Assembly: GCF_000264455.2 (NCBI RefSeq)
Contig: NC_017956.1
Coordinates: 1,719,501 to 1,783,500 of the forward strand
Length of the DNA: 64,000 bases
Reading direction: 5' to 3'
Source: Tistrella mobilis KA081020-065
GTDB lineage: Bacteria > Pseudomonadota > Alphaproteobacteria > Tistrellales > Tistrellaceae
Each line of letters starts with the position of its first letter. Within the stretch, counting starts at the first letter, position 1. The notes beneath the pieces were generated by a model. That model ran no database searches and was not told the origin of the DNA. It worked only from the letters and a program-made list of their open reading frames with translations. Below, piece after piece: positions 6,345-56,213 of the stretch. Made by a program: the position numbers and the translations under genes.

Positions 6345-9236
<2,892 letters not shown>

Positions 9237-46670: not shown

Positions 46671-46762
46671 TCCGCGCCCGACGCGGGAGTACGGCCTTGC
46701 GGTCGCTTCTCCGTCGTCATACCTTTTTTGAGCGACTCTAAAAGTCATCGGAGCAACCAGCC

Positions 46763-47164
46763 ATGGCCCGCGTCACCGTCGAAGATTGCGTCCGTCTTGT
46801 CCCCAACCGGTTCGATCTGGTGCTGATGGCCGCCCAGCGTGCCCGCGAGATCTCGTCGGGTGCGGCACTGACCGTCGACCGCGACAACGATAAGAACCCC
46901 GTCGTCGCCCTGCGCGAGATTGCCGACGAGACCATTGATCTCGATACCGTCTCGCGGCAGCTGGTGCAGACCCATCAGCGCGTTCCCGAGGTCGACGAGC
47001 CGGACGAGGACATCCTTGATGCCATCGGCGAGGTCGCCTCGATCGCCAGCCGTCAGTTGGCCGAGGACGAACTGTCGGGCGGTGGTTCGCTGTCGGTGTC
47101 GGATGACGAGGGCGATGGCTTCGGCGCCCCGCGGTTCGAGGATGCCGACCCCGAAGACGATTGA
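46763..47164 (+). CDS. rpoZ: DNA-directed RNA polymerase omega subunit
   Basis: The 133-residue omega subunit helps assemble RNA polymerase by holding the beta-prime subunit. [31 protein letters not shown] and [15 protein letters not shown] are diagnostic. An acidic C-terminal tail of about 60 residues is usual in this class. It lies upstream of rsh, its normal neighbour, as in the E. coli rpoZ-spoT order. Confidence 0.97.
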
Positions 47165-47343: not shown

Positions 47344-49500
<2,157 letters not shown>

Positions 49501-49586
49501 CCACCGGTTTCCCACCCCTCGGGGCCGCGTGTCGCACGGGCGATGCGCGGCTTCCGCGCATCCCTATCACGGAGTTCGCCCGACCC

Positions 49587-50189
49587 ATGGACACCGAAGA
49601 AGTCCTGGACGTGTTCCGCGCCTGCGGCGCGCTGCTCGAAGGCCATTTCATCCTGTCCTCCGGTCTGCGCAGCCCGCGCTATCTGCAGTGCGCGCGGGTC
49701 ATGATGCATCCCGTCCAGGGCGAGCGGCTGTGCCGGGCGCTGGCGGAGCGGATCAACGCGCGCCTGGCCGACGGCACCATCGCCGGCGGTGGCATCGACT
49801 GCGTGGTGTCGCCAGCCATGGGGGGCGTGATCGTCGGCTATGAGGTCGCCCGCCAGCTTGGCGTGCCGGCCATGTTCACGGAACGGGTGGACGGCAGCTT
49901 CACCCTGCGCCGCGGTTTCGCGATCGAGGCGGGCTGGCGGGTGCTGATGGCCGAAGACGTCGTGACCACCGGCAAGTCGAGCCGGGAATGCATCGCGGCG
50001 ATCGAGGCGGCCGGCGGGCGCGTGGTCGCCGCCTCGGCCTTGATCGACCGGTCGGCCGGCAAGGTCGATCTGGGGGTGCCGTTCGTGTCGCTCACCGGAC
50101 TCGACGTCCCGAGCTATGACCCGAACGATCTTCCGCCTGAACTCGCGGCCCTGCCTGCCGTCAAGCCGGGCAGCCGCGGCCTCGCCTGA
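49587..50189 (+). CDS. pyrE: Orotate phosphoribosyltransferase
   Basis: PyrE joins orotate to PRPP in pyrimidine synthesis. The 200-residue product has [36 protein letters not shown], the [15 protein letters not shown] loop and the PRPP-binding [18 protein letters not shown]. It lies between rsh and the pdxJ-like gene, as in other alphaproteobacteria. Confidence 0.96.
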
Positions 50190-50261
50190 GCGCGAGGCCG
50201 CTTCCGGTGCCGGGCGGATCCTGTCTCCCCGGCACCAAAGCACGAGAAGGAATGCAAGCCA

Positions 50262-51053
50262 GTGACCCAGAACCGACCGCTCGCGGCCTGGTCCGCACCC
50301 CTGCAGGCCCATGGCGGCCGGCGTGGCGACGGGCCGCTCCGCCTGGGGCTCCGGCTCAATCATGCAGCCTTGCTTCGTCAGGCGGGCGACGGCCAGCGCC
50401 CGGACATGGCGCGGCTGGCCGAGGCGACCGTGAAGGCCGGCGCCGACAGCGTGGTTCTGCGTGTTGATGACGGCAGTGGCCTGATCACCGCCGATGATGT
50501 GCGCCGCATCGCCGAACGTGCCCGCGTGCCCCTGACGCTGGAGATGCGTCCCGACCCGGCGCGGGTCGCCTGGGTCACCTCGCTCAGCCCCGCGGCAGTG
50601 ATGCTGCTGCCCGAGTCCGAGGCCGATGTCGCGCGCATGGCCGAGGTGGCGAGCGGCCTTCACGAGGCCGGCGTGCCGGTGCTGGCGCTGGTGGCGCCCG
50701 AGATGGAGGCCATCGATCAGGTGCACGCCTCGGGCATTCGCGGTATCGAACTCGACACCACCTTCTATGGCGAGGCCGCCGAAGAAGTGAGGGCACCGCT
50801 GCTTCAGCAGATCCGCCATGCCGCGAGCCACGCACACGGGATCGGCCTTGGCCTGCAGGCCGGCCACGCCCTGGACTATTCGACGCTGGCGCCGATCGCC
50901 GGACTGCCGCATATCCAGGGCATCACCTGCGGCCGTTTCCTGATCACCGAAGCGCTGTTCATCGGTATCGAAGAGGCCGTGCGCCATACCCGCCGGCTGA
51001 TCGACGCCGCCCGCCGGCAGGCGCGGCGCCATGCGACACGCGGGGCCGACTGA
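50262..51053 (+). CDS. PdxJ-like protein with degenerate active site
   Basis: The 263-residue protein aligns end to end with PdxJ (pyridoxine 5'-phosphate synthase) and sits in the normal pdxJ place before acpS. Key residues are altered: the NIDH start motif is RLNH, the HLREDRRHI loop is replaced by RVDDGSGLI (E. coli H45, R47 and H52 become Arg67, Asp69 and Leu74), the TTEGGLD loop is missing and GH of NIGH is GR225. Glu94 (E72 of E. coli) and His202 (H193) remain. An N-terminal extension of about 25 residues is present. The start is GTG at 50262. Whether it still makes pyridoxine phosphate is doubtful. Confidence 0.8.
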
Positions 51054-51057
51054 CCTT

Positions 51058-51489
51058 ATGATGCGGATCATCGGCACCGGGATCGATATGGTCGACGTCC
51101 GGCGGATCGAGAAGACGCTCGACCGCTTCGGCGAGCGTTTCGTGCAGCGCTGCTTCACGGTGACGGAGCGAAACCTCTCCGACGGACGTGTGCGCCGGGC
51201 GAACAGCTATGCCAAGCGCTACGCCGCCAAGGAGGCGGGGGCCAAGGCGCTGGGAACCGGGCTCGACCGCGGCGTGGCGTGGCGGGATATCGGCGTCGTG
51301 AACCTGCCCGGCGGCAGGCCGACCCTGCAGCTCACCGGCGGGGCTGAACGCCTTCTGGCGCAACTGGTTCCGGCGGGGTACCTTCCGAAGATCGATTTGA
51401 CGCTGACCGACGAATATCCATATGCTCAGGCGCTCGTGATCATCAGCGCCGTGCCGGATATCTCGGTGCAAGACGGGAGTTCAACGTGA
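51058..51489 (+). CDS. acpS: Holo-[acyl-carrier-protein] synthase
   Basis: AcpS attaches 4'-phosphopantetheine to acyl carrier protein. The 143-residue product has [41 protein letters not shown] (catalytic Glu and Lys) and the C-terminal [17 protein letters not shown]. Two ATGs in a row (51058, 51061) lie just after the pdxJ-like stop. Its stop overlaps the GTG start of lepB by four bases (GTGA), so the two are translationally coupled. Confidence 0.95.
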
Positions 51490-52286
51490 CGCGCGACACG
51501 AGCCGGACGGACGGCGACAATCCGCGGAACCGCAAGCCGCGGGCAGCCGAAGACCGCTCGGGCGGTTTCGGCGAGATGGTGAAGACAGTGGTCATCGCCG
51601 TCTTCTTCGCCCTGGTGATCCGGTCCTTCGCCTTCGAACCGTTCAACATCCCGTCCGGGTCGATGAAGCCGACCCTGCTGGTCGGCGACTATCTGTTCGT
51701 GTCGAAGTACAGTTACGGCTACAGCCGCTATTCCTTTCCGGGCAGCCTGCCGCTCTTCGAGGGTCGGATCCTGTCGAGCCCGGTCAAGCGCGGCGATGTG
51801 GCGGTCTTCCGCCTGCCGACCGATCCTTCGGTCGACTACATCAAGCGCATCGTCGGTCTGCCGGGGGACCGGATCCAGGTGATCGACGGCATCCTGCACA
51901 TCAACGGCACGGCCGTTGAACGGCGCCGGATCGAGGATTTTGTCGAGACGGGCCCGGGCGGTCAGGAGATCCGCATCCCGCGCTATGTCGAGACGATGCC
52001 CGAGGGCGGCCCGTCCTACGAGACGCTGGACCAGACACCCTATGGCGCGCTGGACAACACGCCGGTCTATACCGTTCCGGCCGGGCATTATTTCGCGATG
52101 GGCGACAATCGCGACAACTCCCAGGACAGCCGTGTTCTGTCGGCCGTGGGCTTCGTGCCCGAGGAGAACCTGATCGGCCGGGCCGAAGTGCTGTTCTTCT
52201 CGATCGACGACAGCGCTGCCTGGTGGCAGGTGTGGAAGTGGCCGTCGGCCATCCGCTGGTCGCGCCTGCTGGACGGCGTGGGTTGA
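51486..52286 (+). CDS. lepB: Signal peptidase I
   Basis: LepB cleaves signal peptides at the outer face of the inner membrane. After a charged cytosolic N-terminus comes one membrane segment ([20 protein letters not shown], about 31-50), then the catalytic Ser in [19 protein letters not shown] (about 58) and Lys in [16 protein letters not shown] (about 120), and the [11 protein letters not shown] box. The start is GTG at 51486 with GGGAG upstream. It is followed by rnc and era, its usual partners. Confidence 0.97.
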
Positions 52287-52355: not shown

Positions 52356-53084
52356 ATGGATGAACAACGCCAGGCCACCACGCTTGCGGAATGCGCGCGT
52401 GAGATCGGCCATGACTTCGACGACCCGTCGCTGTTGGAAGCGGCCCTGACCCATCCGAGCGTCGATGGCGGCGGTCGCGATCGCAATGGCCGGGTCCGGC
52501 TGAATTACGAGCGGCTGGAGTTCCTGGGCGACCGTGTGCTTGGGCTGGCGGTGGCCGACCAGCTCTATCACCGCTTCCCGGGGGAGAGCGAAGGCGCGCT
52601 TGCCCGTCGTTTCGCAGCCCTGGTCCGACGCGAGAGCCTGGCGCGGGTGGCCGAGATGCTGTCGCTCGGCCGCTATCTGCGCCTGTCGCGGGGCGAGGAC
52701 GACAGCGGTGGCCGCAGAAATCCTGCCAATCTTGCCGATGCCTGCGAAGCGGTCATTGCGGCCCTGTATCTCGACGGCGGGTTCGATACCGCCCGTCGCT
52801 TCGTCGAACGCTATTGGGCGCCGCTGATGGAGGAAGACCTCCGTCCGCCCAAGGACCCGAAGACCGCGCTCCAGGAATGGGCGCAGGCGCGGGGCCTTGA
52901 GGCGCCCGTCTACACCGTGATCGGCCGCGAAGGCCCGGATCACGCCCCGTCCTTCCGCGTCCGTGCCCAGGTGGCACGGCTCGGCGCCGAGGAGGCCACC
53001 GGTGCCTCCAAGCGCATTGCCGAGCAGGCCGCGGCCCAAAGCCTGCTGAGCCGCGCCGAGGGGCGCGGTGGAGACCAGAAATGA
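52356..53084 (+). CDS. rnc: Ribonuclease III
   Basis: RNase III cuts double-stranded RNA, including rRNA precursors. The 242-residue protein has the signature NYERLEFLGDRVLGLAVADQ, the second acidic cluster NLADACEAVIAALYLDGG, and a C-terminal double-stranded RNA-binding domain (DPKTALQEWAQARG to KRIAEQAAAQSLL). Its stop overlaps the era ATG by four bases. Confidence 0.97.
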   Translation: MDEQRQATTLAECAREIGHDFDDPSLLEAALTHPSVDGGGRDRNGRVRLNYERLEFLGDRVLGLAVADQLYHRFPGESEGALARRFAALVRRESLARVAEMLSLGRYLRLSRGEDDSGGRRNPANLADACEAVIAALYLDGGFDTARRFVERYWAPLMEEDLRPPKDPKTALQEWAQARGLEAPVYTVIGREGPDHAPSFRVRAQVARLGAEEATGASKRIAEQAAAQSLLSRAEGRGGDQK

Positions 53085-54445: not shown

Positions 54446-55069
54446 ATGCATCATCGCTATCTTCTGATCTATCGTTTTCTGCTGGTGAACATGGTGGCGG
54501 CCGCAGGGCTCGCCATGGCCTGGGTTCATGGCTGGATCGACCGGGTGCTCGCCTCGGATTCGAGCCGGATCTCGGTTCTGATCTTTGCGGTGTTTCTGGT
54601 CGGCCTGACGCTCTGTGCCTGGCGGATCATCCAGATCAGCGACGGCCTGAACGATCTGAAGCGGGCCCAGCCGGCGAAGAACGGCCGGGTCGCTGCCTAT
54701 CTTTCGACGCTGACCCGCGTGCCCGAGGCGCGCCGCCCGGTGGTGGCCGAAGGGTTGAAGGCCAAGCTCTACGCCCGGGCATCGAATGTGCGCTACATCG
54801 CCGACAGCCTGGTTCTGCTGGGCCTGATCGGCACGGTGGTCGGCTTCATCGTGGCGCTCTCGGGCGTCGATCAGAACCGTGTCGCCGATGTCTCGGCGGT
54901 CGGGCCGATGGTCGCCCAGCTGCTCGACGGCATGGCGATCGCCCTCTGGACGACGCTGGTCGGCAGCATCCTGCACATCTGGCTTCGGCTGAACTATCAG
55001 ATCCTTGCGGGCGGCACCGTCACCCTGGTCGCGGATCTTGTCGCGCGGGGTGAAGGCGATGCTGTATGA
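54446..55069 (+). CDS. MotA/TolQ/ExbB-like proton channel family protein
   Basis: A 207-residue inner-membrane protein with about four hydrophobic segments: IYRFLLVNMVAAAGLAMAW, ISVLIFAVFLVGLTLCAW, LVLLGLIGTVVGFIVALSG and MAIALWTTLVGSILHIWL. The last two match the TolQ/ExbB/MotA signature, where GTVxG and the LxTxxG helix line the ion path. No long cytosolic loop of the MotA type is seen. ATG at 54446 has GAGGGGG upstream; a GTG at 54425 is alternative. It overlaps the next gene by 11 bases. Partner subunits of ExbD/TolR type are not recognised, but the next two genes are candidates. Confidence 0.75.
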   Translation: MHHRYLLIYRFLLVNMVAAAGLAMAWVHGWIDRVLASDSSRISVLIFAVFLVGLTLCAWRIIQISDGLNDLKRAQPAKNGRVAAYLSTLTRVPEARRPVVAEGLKAKLYARASNVRYIADSLVLLGLIGTVVGFIVALSGVDQNRVADVSAVGPMVAQLLDGMAIALWTTLVGSILHIWLRLNYQILAGGTVTLVADLVARGEGDAV

Positions 55070-55673
55070 CGACCCTCTCAAACCCGATGGCGACGATGGC
55101 GCGGGAACCGTCTTTCGCGACGTCATCACGCTCACCCTGCTCGGTTTCGTGGCCGTGGTCATCCTGCTGCTGCCGCATCTCAACCCGCCGCGCAAGCAGG
55201 ATCAGGCGGAAGTCACCGCGCCCGGCAATGTGATTGTCGAGGCGCTGTGGGAAGCCGATCTCGACACCGATGTCGACCTCTGGGTCAAGGCGCCGGGCGA
55301 TGTGCCGGTCGGCTATTCCAACAAGGGCGGGGTGATCTTCAACCTGCTGCGTGACGATCTCGGCCGCTATGGCGACGCCACCGACAGCAATCACGAAGTC
55401 TCGTACAGCCGCGGCATTCCGCCGGGCGAGTACATCGTGAACGTCCATCTGTTCCGCAATCAGAGCCGGCAGCTGCCCGTGCGGGTGAAGGTCGTCGCCA
55501 GCGTCAAGAGCGACCAGCAGTCTTCGGCCCGGCAGATCCTGGCGACCGAGGTGGCGCTGAACCGCGAGGGCGAGGAAATCACCGCGATGCGGTTCCGGCT
55601 CGACGACAAGGCGCGGCTGGTGCCGGACAGCGTCAACAGCCTGTATCAGCGCCTGCGCAGCAATCGCGGGTGA
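55059..55673 (+). CDS. Membrane-anchored protein with periplasmic beta-sandwich-like domain, unknown function
   Basis: The 204-residue product has one membrane anchor (DVITLTLLGFVAVVILLLPH, about 26-45) and a periplasmic domain. Residues of about 60-150 (VEALWEADLDTDVDLWVKAP, SNKGGVIFNLLRDDLGRYGD, GIPPGEYIVNVHLF) resemble DUF2135/YfaP-like beta-sandwich domains, where DxDLWV and GxYxVxVxxF are typical. The topology, one N-terminal helix then a periplasmic domain, is that of ExbD/TolR, though the sequence is not. It overlaps the channel-like gene by 11 bases, so the two products probably form one complex (inference). Confidence 0.65.
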   Translation: MLYDDPLKPDGDDGAGTVFRDVITLTLLGFVAVVILLLPHLNPPRKQDQAEVTAPGNVIVEALWEADLDTDVDLWVKAPGDVPVGYSNKGGVIFNLLRDDLGRYGDATDSNHEVSYSRGIPPGEYIVNVHLFRNQSRQLPVRVKVVASVKSDQQSSARQILATEVALNREGEEITAMRFRLDDKARLVPDSVNSLYQRLRSNRG

Positions 55674-55688
55674 GGGAAGGAGAGACGC

Positions 55689-56213
55689 ATGAACGATGTC
55701 GTCTATGTCTTCGCCGCCACCGCCGGCATCACCGCTCTGCTTGCGACGCTTGCGATCTGGGCGCCCCGGCGCCTGCCGGTCCGGATGGCCGCCATCGGGC
55801 TGACGGCCTTGCTGCTGCCCGCAGCCTATCTTGGCTTCACGACGCTGCTGTCACAGCCCAAGCCGATCACGATGGAATGGCTCGACAAGGGGGCGGGCGA
55901 GGCCACGGTGCTGGGATCCGTGATACGAGAGGGTGAGGGGATCTATCTCTGGATCCAGCCCGATGGCGGCAATATCCCGCGCTATTACGTTCTGCCCTGG
56001 GATCTGAAACAGGCCCAGCAGTTGCAGAACGCGATGCGCGACGCCGATAAAAACCAGAACGGGCTGAAGATGCGCTCGCCCTATGAACCCACCTGGGACC
56101 GGCGCGAGCCCCGCTTCTACGCGGCACCGCAGCCGGCCCCGCCGCCCAAGCGCGGCCCCGAGGAGGAGGATGACGGGCCGATGATCTATCGCCATCCCGG
56201 CTGGGACGTCTGA
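55689..56213 (+). CDS. Membrane protein of unknown function, third gene of TolQ-like cluster
   Basis: I do not recognise the family of this 174-residue protein. Two hydrophobic segments come first (VVYVFAATAGITALLATLAIW and MAAIGLTALLLPAAYLGFTTL; quoted in part as AATAGITALLATLAIW), then a soluble part (ITMEWLDKGAGEATVLGSVI, EGIYLWIQPDGGNIPRYYVL, KQAQQLQNAMRDADKNQNG) and a Pro/acidic tail. GAAGGAGAG lies upstream of the ATG, 15 bases after the previous stop, so it belongs to the same operon. Its end overlaps the convergent reductase gene by 28 bases. Confidence 0.65.
   Translation: MNDVVYVFAATAGITALLATLAIWAPRRLPVRMAAIGLTALLLPAAYLGFTTLLSQPKPITMEWLDKGAGEATVLGSVIREGEGIYLWIQPDGGNIPRYYVLPWDLKQAQQLQNAMRDADKNQNGLKMRSPYEPTWDRREPRFYAAPQPAPPPKRGPEEEDDGPMIYRHPGWDV

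Follow-up and report, generated by a model that had tools for sequence, protein, structure and literature searches.

A PdxJ that has probably left pyridoxine 5'-phosphate synthesis but not its locus

What becomes of a pdxJ gene that stays in its usual place while most of the catalytic residues of its product are replaced, and from where does such a cell obtain its vitamin B6? Both questions are raised by positions 50262-51053 (+ strand) of the window, the 64,000-nt stretch of DNA analyzed here (G000:C1:1719501-1783500), which belongs to a genome of 6.5 Mb in five contigs (G000). The conserved pdxJ locus and the named matches identify this genome as that of an alphaproteobacterium, and it is compared below with a genome of the same species (G059) and one of the same genus (G001). 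The gene, which we call pdxJ-star, has a GTG start codon and encodes a protein of 263 aa, in which an N-terminal extension (residues 1-24) precedes a barrel (about residues 25-252). As judged from its Pfam match, its residues, and a structural model, the product has the PdxJ fold but carries replacements at most catalytic positions and lacks the lid loop. It belongs to the PdxJ family, matching PF03740 over the entire profile (1-234 of 234) with 177.9 bits against a gathering score of 24.5. None of the six NCBIfam PdxJ equivalog cut-offs was reached (the best score was 132.7 bits, with 331 required), and the same held for the proteins of G059 and G001.

A reading made from the sequence alone had placed this PdxJ at its normal locus, and the neighborhood agrees, as pdxJ-star occupies the usual alphaproteobacterial slot of class I pdxJ, between relA/pyrE and acpS-lepB-rnc. 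On its left lie a relA/spoT homologue (47344-49500, +) and a phosphoribosyltransferase gene (49587-50189, +) that has a Pfam match to a general domain and that we take from its context to be pyrE; on its right lie acpS (51061-51489, +), lepB (51486-52286, +), and rnc, for RNase III (52356-53084, +). Of 57 ordinary alphaproteobacterial pdxJ loci, 56 had an acpS match no more than 1.5 kb from pdxJ (a tally made by eye, with two genome places entered twice, making 55 places, and L043 as the miss), and most of these loci also had lepB, rnc, and relA. Farther along in the window, two open reading frames that follow a MotA/ExbB-like gene (55005-55673 and 55689-56213) had no Pfam match, the scan of the former having begun at an in-frame codon inside it.

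The sequences of PdxJ fall into two types, which we take to be class I and class II. In a tree of 89 rows, 30 class II rows were separated from the other 59 at 100/100, and the three diverged proteins of the genus fell on the class I side, on a stem that reached the program's length ceiling (10) and with tips of 0.01 to 0.09; this tree has flagged long branches and a bootstrap that had yet to settle, and the attachment point of the three within class I is uncertain. The long stem and short tips record a burst of change followed by rest. Slot and tree together mark pdxJ-star as the old class I pdxJ of this lineage, not as a newcomer.

We compared the active site with that of Escherichia coli PdxJ, in which residue n corresponds to pdxJ-star residue n + 22 on the N-terminal side of the lid loop. 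H45 is the general base of PdxJ, and E72, H193, and the lid loop also have catalytic or binding roles there. In the strand 1 motif (aa 26 to 36; 50337-50369, +), N9 is replaced by R31 and D11 by N33 and H12 is kept, and farther on R20 is replaced by G42 and R17 is retained. In the strand 2 motif (aa 66 to 78; 50457-50495, +), which ordinarily reads HLREDRRHI, H45 has become R67, R47 has become D69, and H52 has become L74. The E72 equivalent (E94) is kept in the strand 3 motif LTLEM (aa 91 to 95; 50532-50546, +). At strand 4 and the site of the lid (aa 112 to 124; 50595-50633, +), the ordinary TTEGGLD is absent, the loop around positions 102 to 107 (E. coli numbering) having been deleted. The strand 6 motif IELDTTFY (aa 162 to 169; 50745-50768, +) keeps E153 as E163 and has D165 for H155; the strand 7 motif QAGHA (aa 199 to 203; 50856-50870, +) keeps H193 as H202, next to a retained G192, and has A203 for G194; and the strand 8 motif GITCGRF (aa 220 to 226; 50919-50939, +) keeps G215 as G224 and has R225 for H216. 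The alignment thus bore out every substitution named in the sequence-only reading: Arg, Asp, and Leu at H45, R47, and H52, the missing TTEGGLD, the changes at N9 and D11, and Arg at H216. The same reading held that only the E72 and H193 equivalents and the barrel remain; these are indeed kept, but "only" was wrong, as E153, H12, and R17 are kept too.

The extent of this departure can be judged from 163 ordinary class I PdxJs, a set that includes three with an altered H216 (L033, L179, and L183) and one gene cut by a contig end (L236). This set has 56 columns with at least 97% fixation; pdxJ-star departs from 36 of them, beyond what chance would give, and the ordinary rows depart from 0.31 on average and from 5 at most. 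H45, R47, H52, E72, E153, and H193 are each fixed in 163 of 163 rows and H216 is fixed in 159, with F or Y in 3; in 77 of 80 named loci, seven key residues are all kept, the exceptions being L158, L179 (H216F), and L183 (H216Y). The ordinary PdxJs inspected beside pdxJ-star were intact at the key positions except for L033 (H216F). As a separate observation, L033, L179 (a MAG labeled Planctomycetota), and L183 (a MAG labeled Omnitrophota), with F, F, and Y in place of H216, keep the other key residues. Taken singly, the changes at D11 and H216 are weak; D11N means little alone because position 11 is N in all 35 class II PdxJs compared. Comparison of the two classes (163 class I and 35 class II rows) gave 15 of 24 active-site positions that are fixed in both: N9, R20, H45, R47, D49, R51, H52, E72, T102, G106, F133, E153, H193, G215, and H216. 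Four of these (E72, E153, H193, and G215) are kept by pdxJ-star, and 11 are replaced or deleted. Within the catalytic and binding set of H45, R47, H52, E72, H193, H216, and the lid loop, it retains only E72 and H193.

An AlphaFold2 model built from pdxJ-star and 51 PdxJs of the named loci had a pLDDT of 91.7 and a pTM of 0.88, with residues 1 to 13 below a pLDDT of 50. It overlaid E. coli PdxJ (PDB 1ho1) with an rmsd of 1.5 Å over 229 of 242 residues (Z, 33.1), model residues 24 to 252 corresponding to residues 2 to 243 of the chain. Its top matches among solved structures were PdxJs, the best four with an rmsd of 1.5 Å over 229 to 232 residues and with Z reaching 33.2, and the next folds among the matches listed were IGPS, KGPDC, and RPE at a Z of about 20. 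Because fold and register are kept in the model, the residues have been replaced in place and do not reflect a slip of the alignment. Thus, pdxJ-star is like the class I enzyme of E. coli (PDB 1ho1 and 1m5w) in its fold and in E72, E153, H193, and G215, and its slot is of the type of alphaproteobacterial pdxJ; unlike that enzyme, it has replacements at H45, R47, H52, N9, R20, H155, and H216, lacks the lid, and carries an N-terminal extension of ~24 residues. It shares with class II-type PdxJ (NF003626) the PdxJ fold and the N at position 11, but all 35 class II rows keep N9, R20, H45, R47, H52, E72, T102, G106, H193, and H216, and of these only E72 and H193 are kept by both.

One proposal of the sequence-only reading was that vitamin B6 is made by another pdxJ copy, and a search of the genome found one. 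An intact class II-type PdxJ is encoded at G000:C4:753412-754140 (6398-7150, − strand, of the fetched locus L067). It has all 15 of the cross-class fixed residues and passes two of the six NCBIfam PdxJ equivalog cut-offs, scoring 314.5 bits with NF003626, for which the cut-off is 222. All three genomes of the genus encode a class II PdxJ, the copies in G059 and G001 being 98% and 97% identical to that of the window genome, and each of the three genomes also has two PdxA matches. A second proposal, synthesis through PdxS, found no support: PF01680 had no match in any of the three genomes and was found in 10 of 14 control genomes. Vitamin B6 is thus very probably made here by the class II copy, judging from its intact sequence. 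By Pfam, the neighbors of this copy (7361-12704 of L067) encode a glycosyltransferase of family 20, a sucrose-phosphatase-like hydrolase, a glycerol-3-phosphate dehydrogenase, and an alpha-amylase domain, with no B6 genes among them; together they look, at a guess, like a sugar-osmolyte cluster. The place of the class II copy among the class II rows of the tree is weakly supported (87/61), and a plasmid search returned no record with at least 60% identity to either PdxJ copy.

Among 58 genomes, G000 and G001 had two full PdxJ matches, and G040 had a partial second match below the cut-off (20.3 bits); among 397 genomes searched, the window's own was the one with two matches. A class II-type PdxJ (E ≤ 1e-40) was found in 30 of 387 genomes of the class, the three of this genus included, and the remaining 27 each have a single PdxJ. 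We examined the acpS loci of these 27; four gave no acpS match, and the other 23 yielded 24 acpS loci, none with a PdxJ at E ≤ 1e-4. By a tally made by eye, relA lay within about 100 nt of acpS in 14 of the 24 loci and about 570 to 1150 nt away in four, and there was no relA match in the flank in six. We concluded from the single PdxJ per genome and from the 24 loci without one that the class I gene is absent from those class II genomes. A search of the 387 genomes (E ≤ 1e-25) found matches in 163, with identities outside the genus of 40% or less among the matches listed, and a scan of genome contigs for short exact peptides of the pdxJ-star protein found no relative, which is weak evidence against the presence of this form in other genera. 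Separately, weak PdxJ matches were seen in G519, G995, G1077, and G1094 (E, 1e-12 to 1e-48), perhaps from split or diverged copies.

Is pdxJ-star, then, still a working gene? The form is common to the three genomes of this genus found by the searches, with the frame open in all three and at the same locus, and 35 of the 36 changed fixed columns carry one identical residue across them. There are 21 variable positions among the three proteins, none of them in residues 2 to 108. The dN/dS of pdxJ-star was 0.09 against both relatives, inside the span of its neighbors (0.09 for acpS, 0.09 to 0.15 for folK, and 0.005 to 0.02 for relA) and near that of the class II copy (0.07 to 0.08). With open frames and a dN/dS equal to that of acpS, pdxJ-star is therefore not a pseudogene. 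The constraint covers a short time only, because the three genomes are closely related (dS of at most 0.43); over the time that they record, their sequences argue for a functioning pdxJ-star rather than a relic. The changed residues are thus conserved in relatives at this locus and the gene is under purifying selection, which supports the other possibility raised by the sequence-only reading, that the protein took a new function, or at least is kept for something besides PNP synthesis.

Candidates at the level of DNA and of an alternative frame were set aside. An out-of-frame open reading frame, 50207-50467, which opens with GTG at 50207, overlaps the 5' end of pdxJ-star; the ATG near its start (50252) is not conserved, being ACG in G001. 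A nucleotide-level element at the 5' end, prompted by 115 invariant nt (50254-50368) and unchanged codons 1 to 24, was dropped because invariant runs of 134 and 133 nt also occur at 49557-49690 and 46701-46833. All three runs exceed the ~76 nt expected at 8% divergence among the three genomes, and two of them sit at gene starts. An Rfam scan over the window found no match.

The explanation that we consider quite likely is that the resident enzyme gave way to a class II PdxJ and was remodeled and retained for some purpose apart from pyridoxine 5'-phosphate (PNP) synthesis. By position, pdxJ-star is the orthologue of class I pdxJ. PNP synthesis would have been taken over by a class II-type PdxJ that is now encoded on another contig; that this copy was acquired from elsewhere, and the sequence in which the changes came, are suppositions of this account. 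The class I gene, absent from the other class II genomes searched, would have stayed in its slot here. A burst of change would then have removed the general base H45, together with R47, H52, N9, R20, H216, and the lid loop, presumably ending PNP synthesis by pdxJ-star, and purifying selection would have followed on a new, fixed pocket in which R31, N33, R67, D69, D165, and R225 accompany the retained E94, E163, and H202. The lidless, remodeled pocket may bind, and perhaps convert, another small molecule, probably an anionic or phosphorylated one. The argument for a new function is one from constraint, and the invariance of the new charged residues in the pocket inclines us to a role in ligand binding or catalysis more than to one that is purely structural.

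A less likely alternative is that pdxJ-star is a noncatalytic regulator that binds metabolites of the B6 pathway or assembles with another protein, such as the class II PdxJ. The loss of catalytic residues from a protein that has kept its fold and its constraint would suit such a role, and there is a precedent in the other B6 pathway: the plant protein PDX1.2 is, according to PMC6071262, a paralogue of the B6 synthase that does not directly make B6 and is kept as a likely regulator. PDX1.2 belongs to a different protein family, Pdx1/PdxS, and interacts with its own active paralogues. Against such a role for pdxJ-star, mixed assemblies of class I and class II PdxJ are not expected, because the classes are deeply split (100/100). 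The invariant new charged residues of the pocket, moreover, fit ligand binding equally well.

It is very unlikely that pdxJ-star still makes PNP through a rearranged active site, with the class II copy as a spare. The unchanged fold and the retained E72, E153, H193, and G215 speak for such an enzyme, and with E72, E153, and H193 in place, a slow or altered PNP synthase may be conceived of; but 11 of the 15 residues fixed across the classes are gone, including H45, R47, H52, H216, and the lid loop, the protein scores below all six NCBIfam cut-offs, and an intact class II copy is present. Marginally less probable again is a decaying gene, on which constraint relaxed once the enzyme was displaced and which persists only because it lies within a transcription unit. 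The burst of change on the stem would be in keeping with relaxation, and dispensability would fit the absence of the gene from other class II genomes, but the frame is open in three of three genomes, dN/dS equals that of acpS, and residues 2 to 108 are identical among three proteins that vary at 21 positions in total. An artefact of one assembly or of the alignment, in favor of which nothing was found, can be dismissed given three separate assemblies with the same locus and the structure-based equivalence.

A similar pair of copies was found in another lineage. The class I PdxJ of Amantichitinum ursilacus (L158:2995-3765, also L246) has H45L, H52N, and a changed loop and sits at an rnc-era-recO-pdxJ locus (neighbors identified by Pfam), an order also found in E. 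coli K-12; the genome has an intact class II copy as well. Two PdxJs occur in 5 of 61 genomes (A. ursilacus and 60 relatives). In the four relatives concerned (L237 to L240), the class I copy, at the same locus, has E72Q, H155D, F133L, and a changed loop, and the class II copies are intact. The class I copies of these four are under strong constraint, with a dN/dS among them of 0.02 to 0.06 at a dS of 0.6 to 2.5, which is partly saturated. H155D and F133L are common to the four and pdxJ-star, and the loop motif is lost in all. Thus, A. ursilacus and L237 to L240, like the genus studied here, have a degenerate class I copy beside an intact class II copy; they differ in lineage, in locus, and in the milder extent of change, with departures from 10 to 12 of the 56 fixed columns against 36 in pdxJ-star, and the A. 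ursilacus class I protein passes three of the six NCBIfam PdxJ cut-offs. The window's acpS had no match in the fetched stretches of L158 and L237 to L240, and a small SpoIIAA-like open reading frame follows pdxJ there. On the sequences compared, the Amantichitinum group is a milder, independent parallel.

Catalytic residues have been lost from the class I copy in all eight two-copy genomes in which both copies were read (three here and five there). In the class to which Amantichitinum belongs, two PdxJ matches were found in 12 of 370 genomes, with the copies read in one of the 12; at least five of the other 11 have a best match of E 2e-95 or better, and since this is the range of ordinary class I proteins, a second PdxJ is not always paired with a degenerate class I copy. 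We hold only tentatively, and with slightly less than even confidence, a broader reading in which a resident class I PdxJ, once class II is present, can become a constrained protein other than a PNP synthase in unrelated lineages, giving a new PdxJ-derived ligand-binding or regulatory set that is annotated as B6 synthases. Under this broader reading, pdxJ-star would be the most remodeled example and the Amantichitinum group an independent one.

In the literature searched, no paper was recognized as describing such a PdxJ, and none joined PdxJ with Tistrella, Silvimonas, or neofunctionalization. A paralogue of a B6 pathway enzyme with a use in another pathway has a precedent in PdxA2 (PMC9997740); PdxA2 is a different enzyme and, by the same paper, still catalyzes the PdxA reaction.

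Taken together, these results describe a PdxJ that has kept its locus but probably no longer takes part in PNP synthesis. A constrained PdxJ without its chemistry would mislead pathway calls if the second copy were overlooked, because PdxJ has served to mark one of the two routes to B6 as its signature gene (PMC9997740). The case would be a clean natural displacement of an enzyme, in which the slot is unchanged, the fold is intact, the ancestral chemistry is known, the cell holds an intact replacement, and another lineage offers a parallel, and with it the fate of a TIM-barrel synthase freed from its reaction becomes directly testable.
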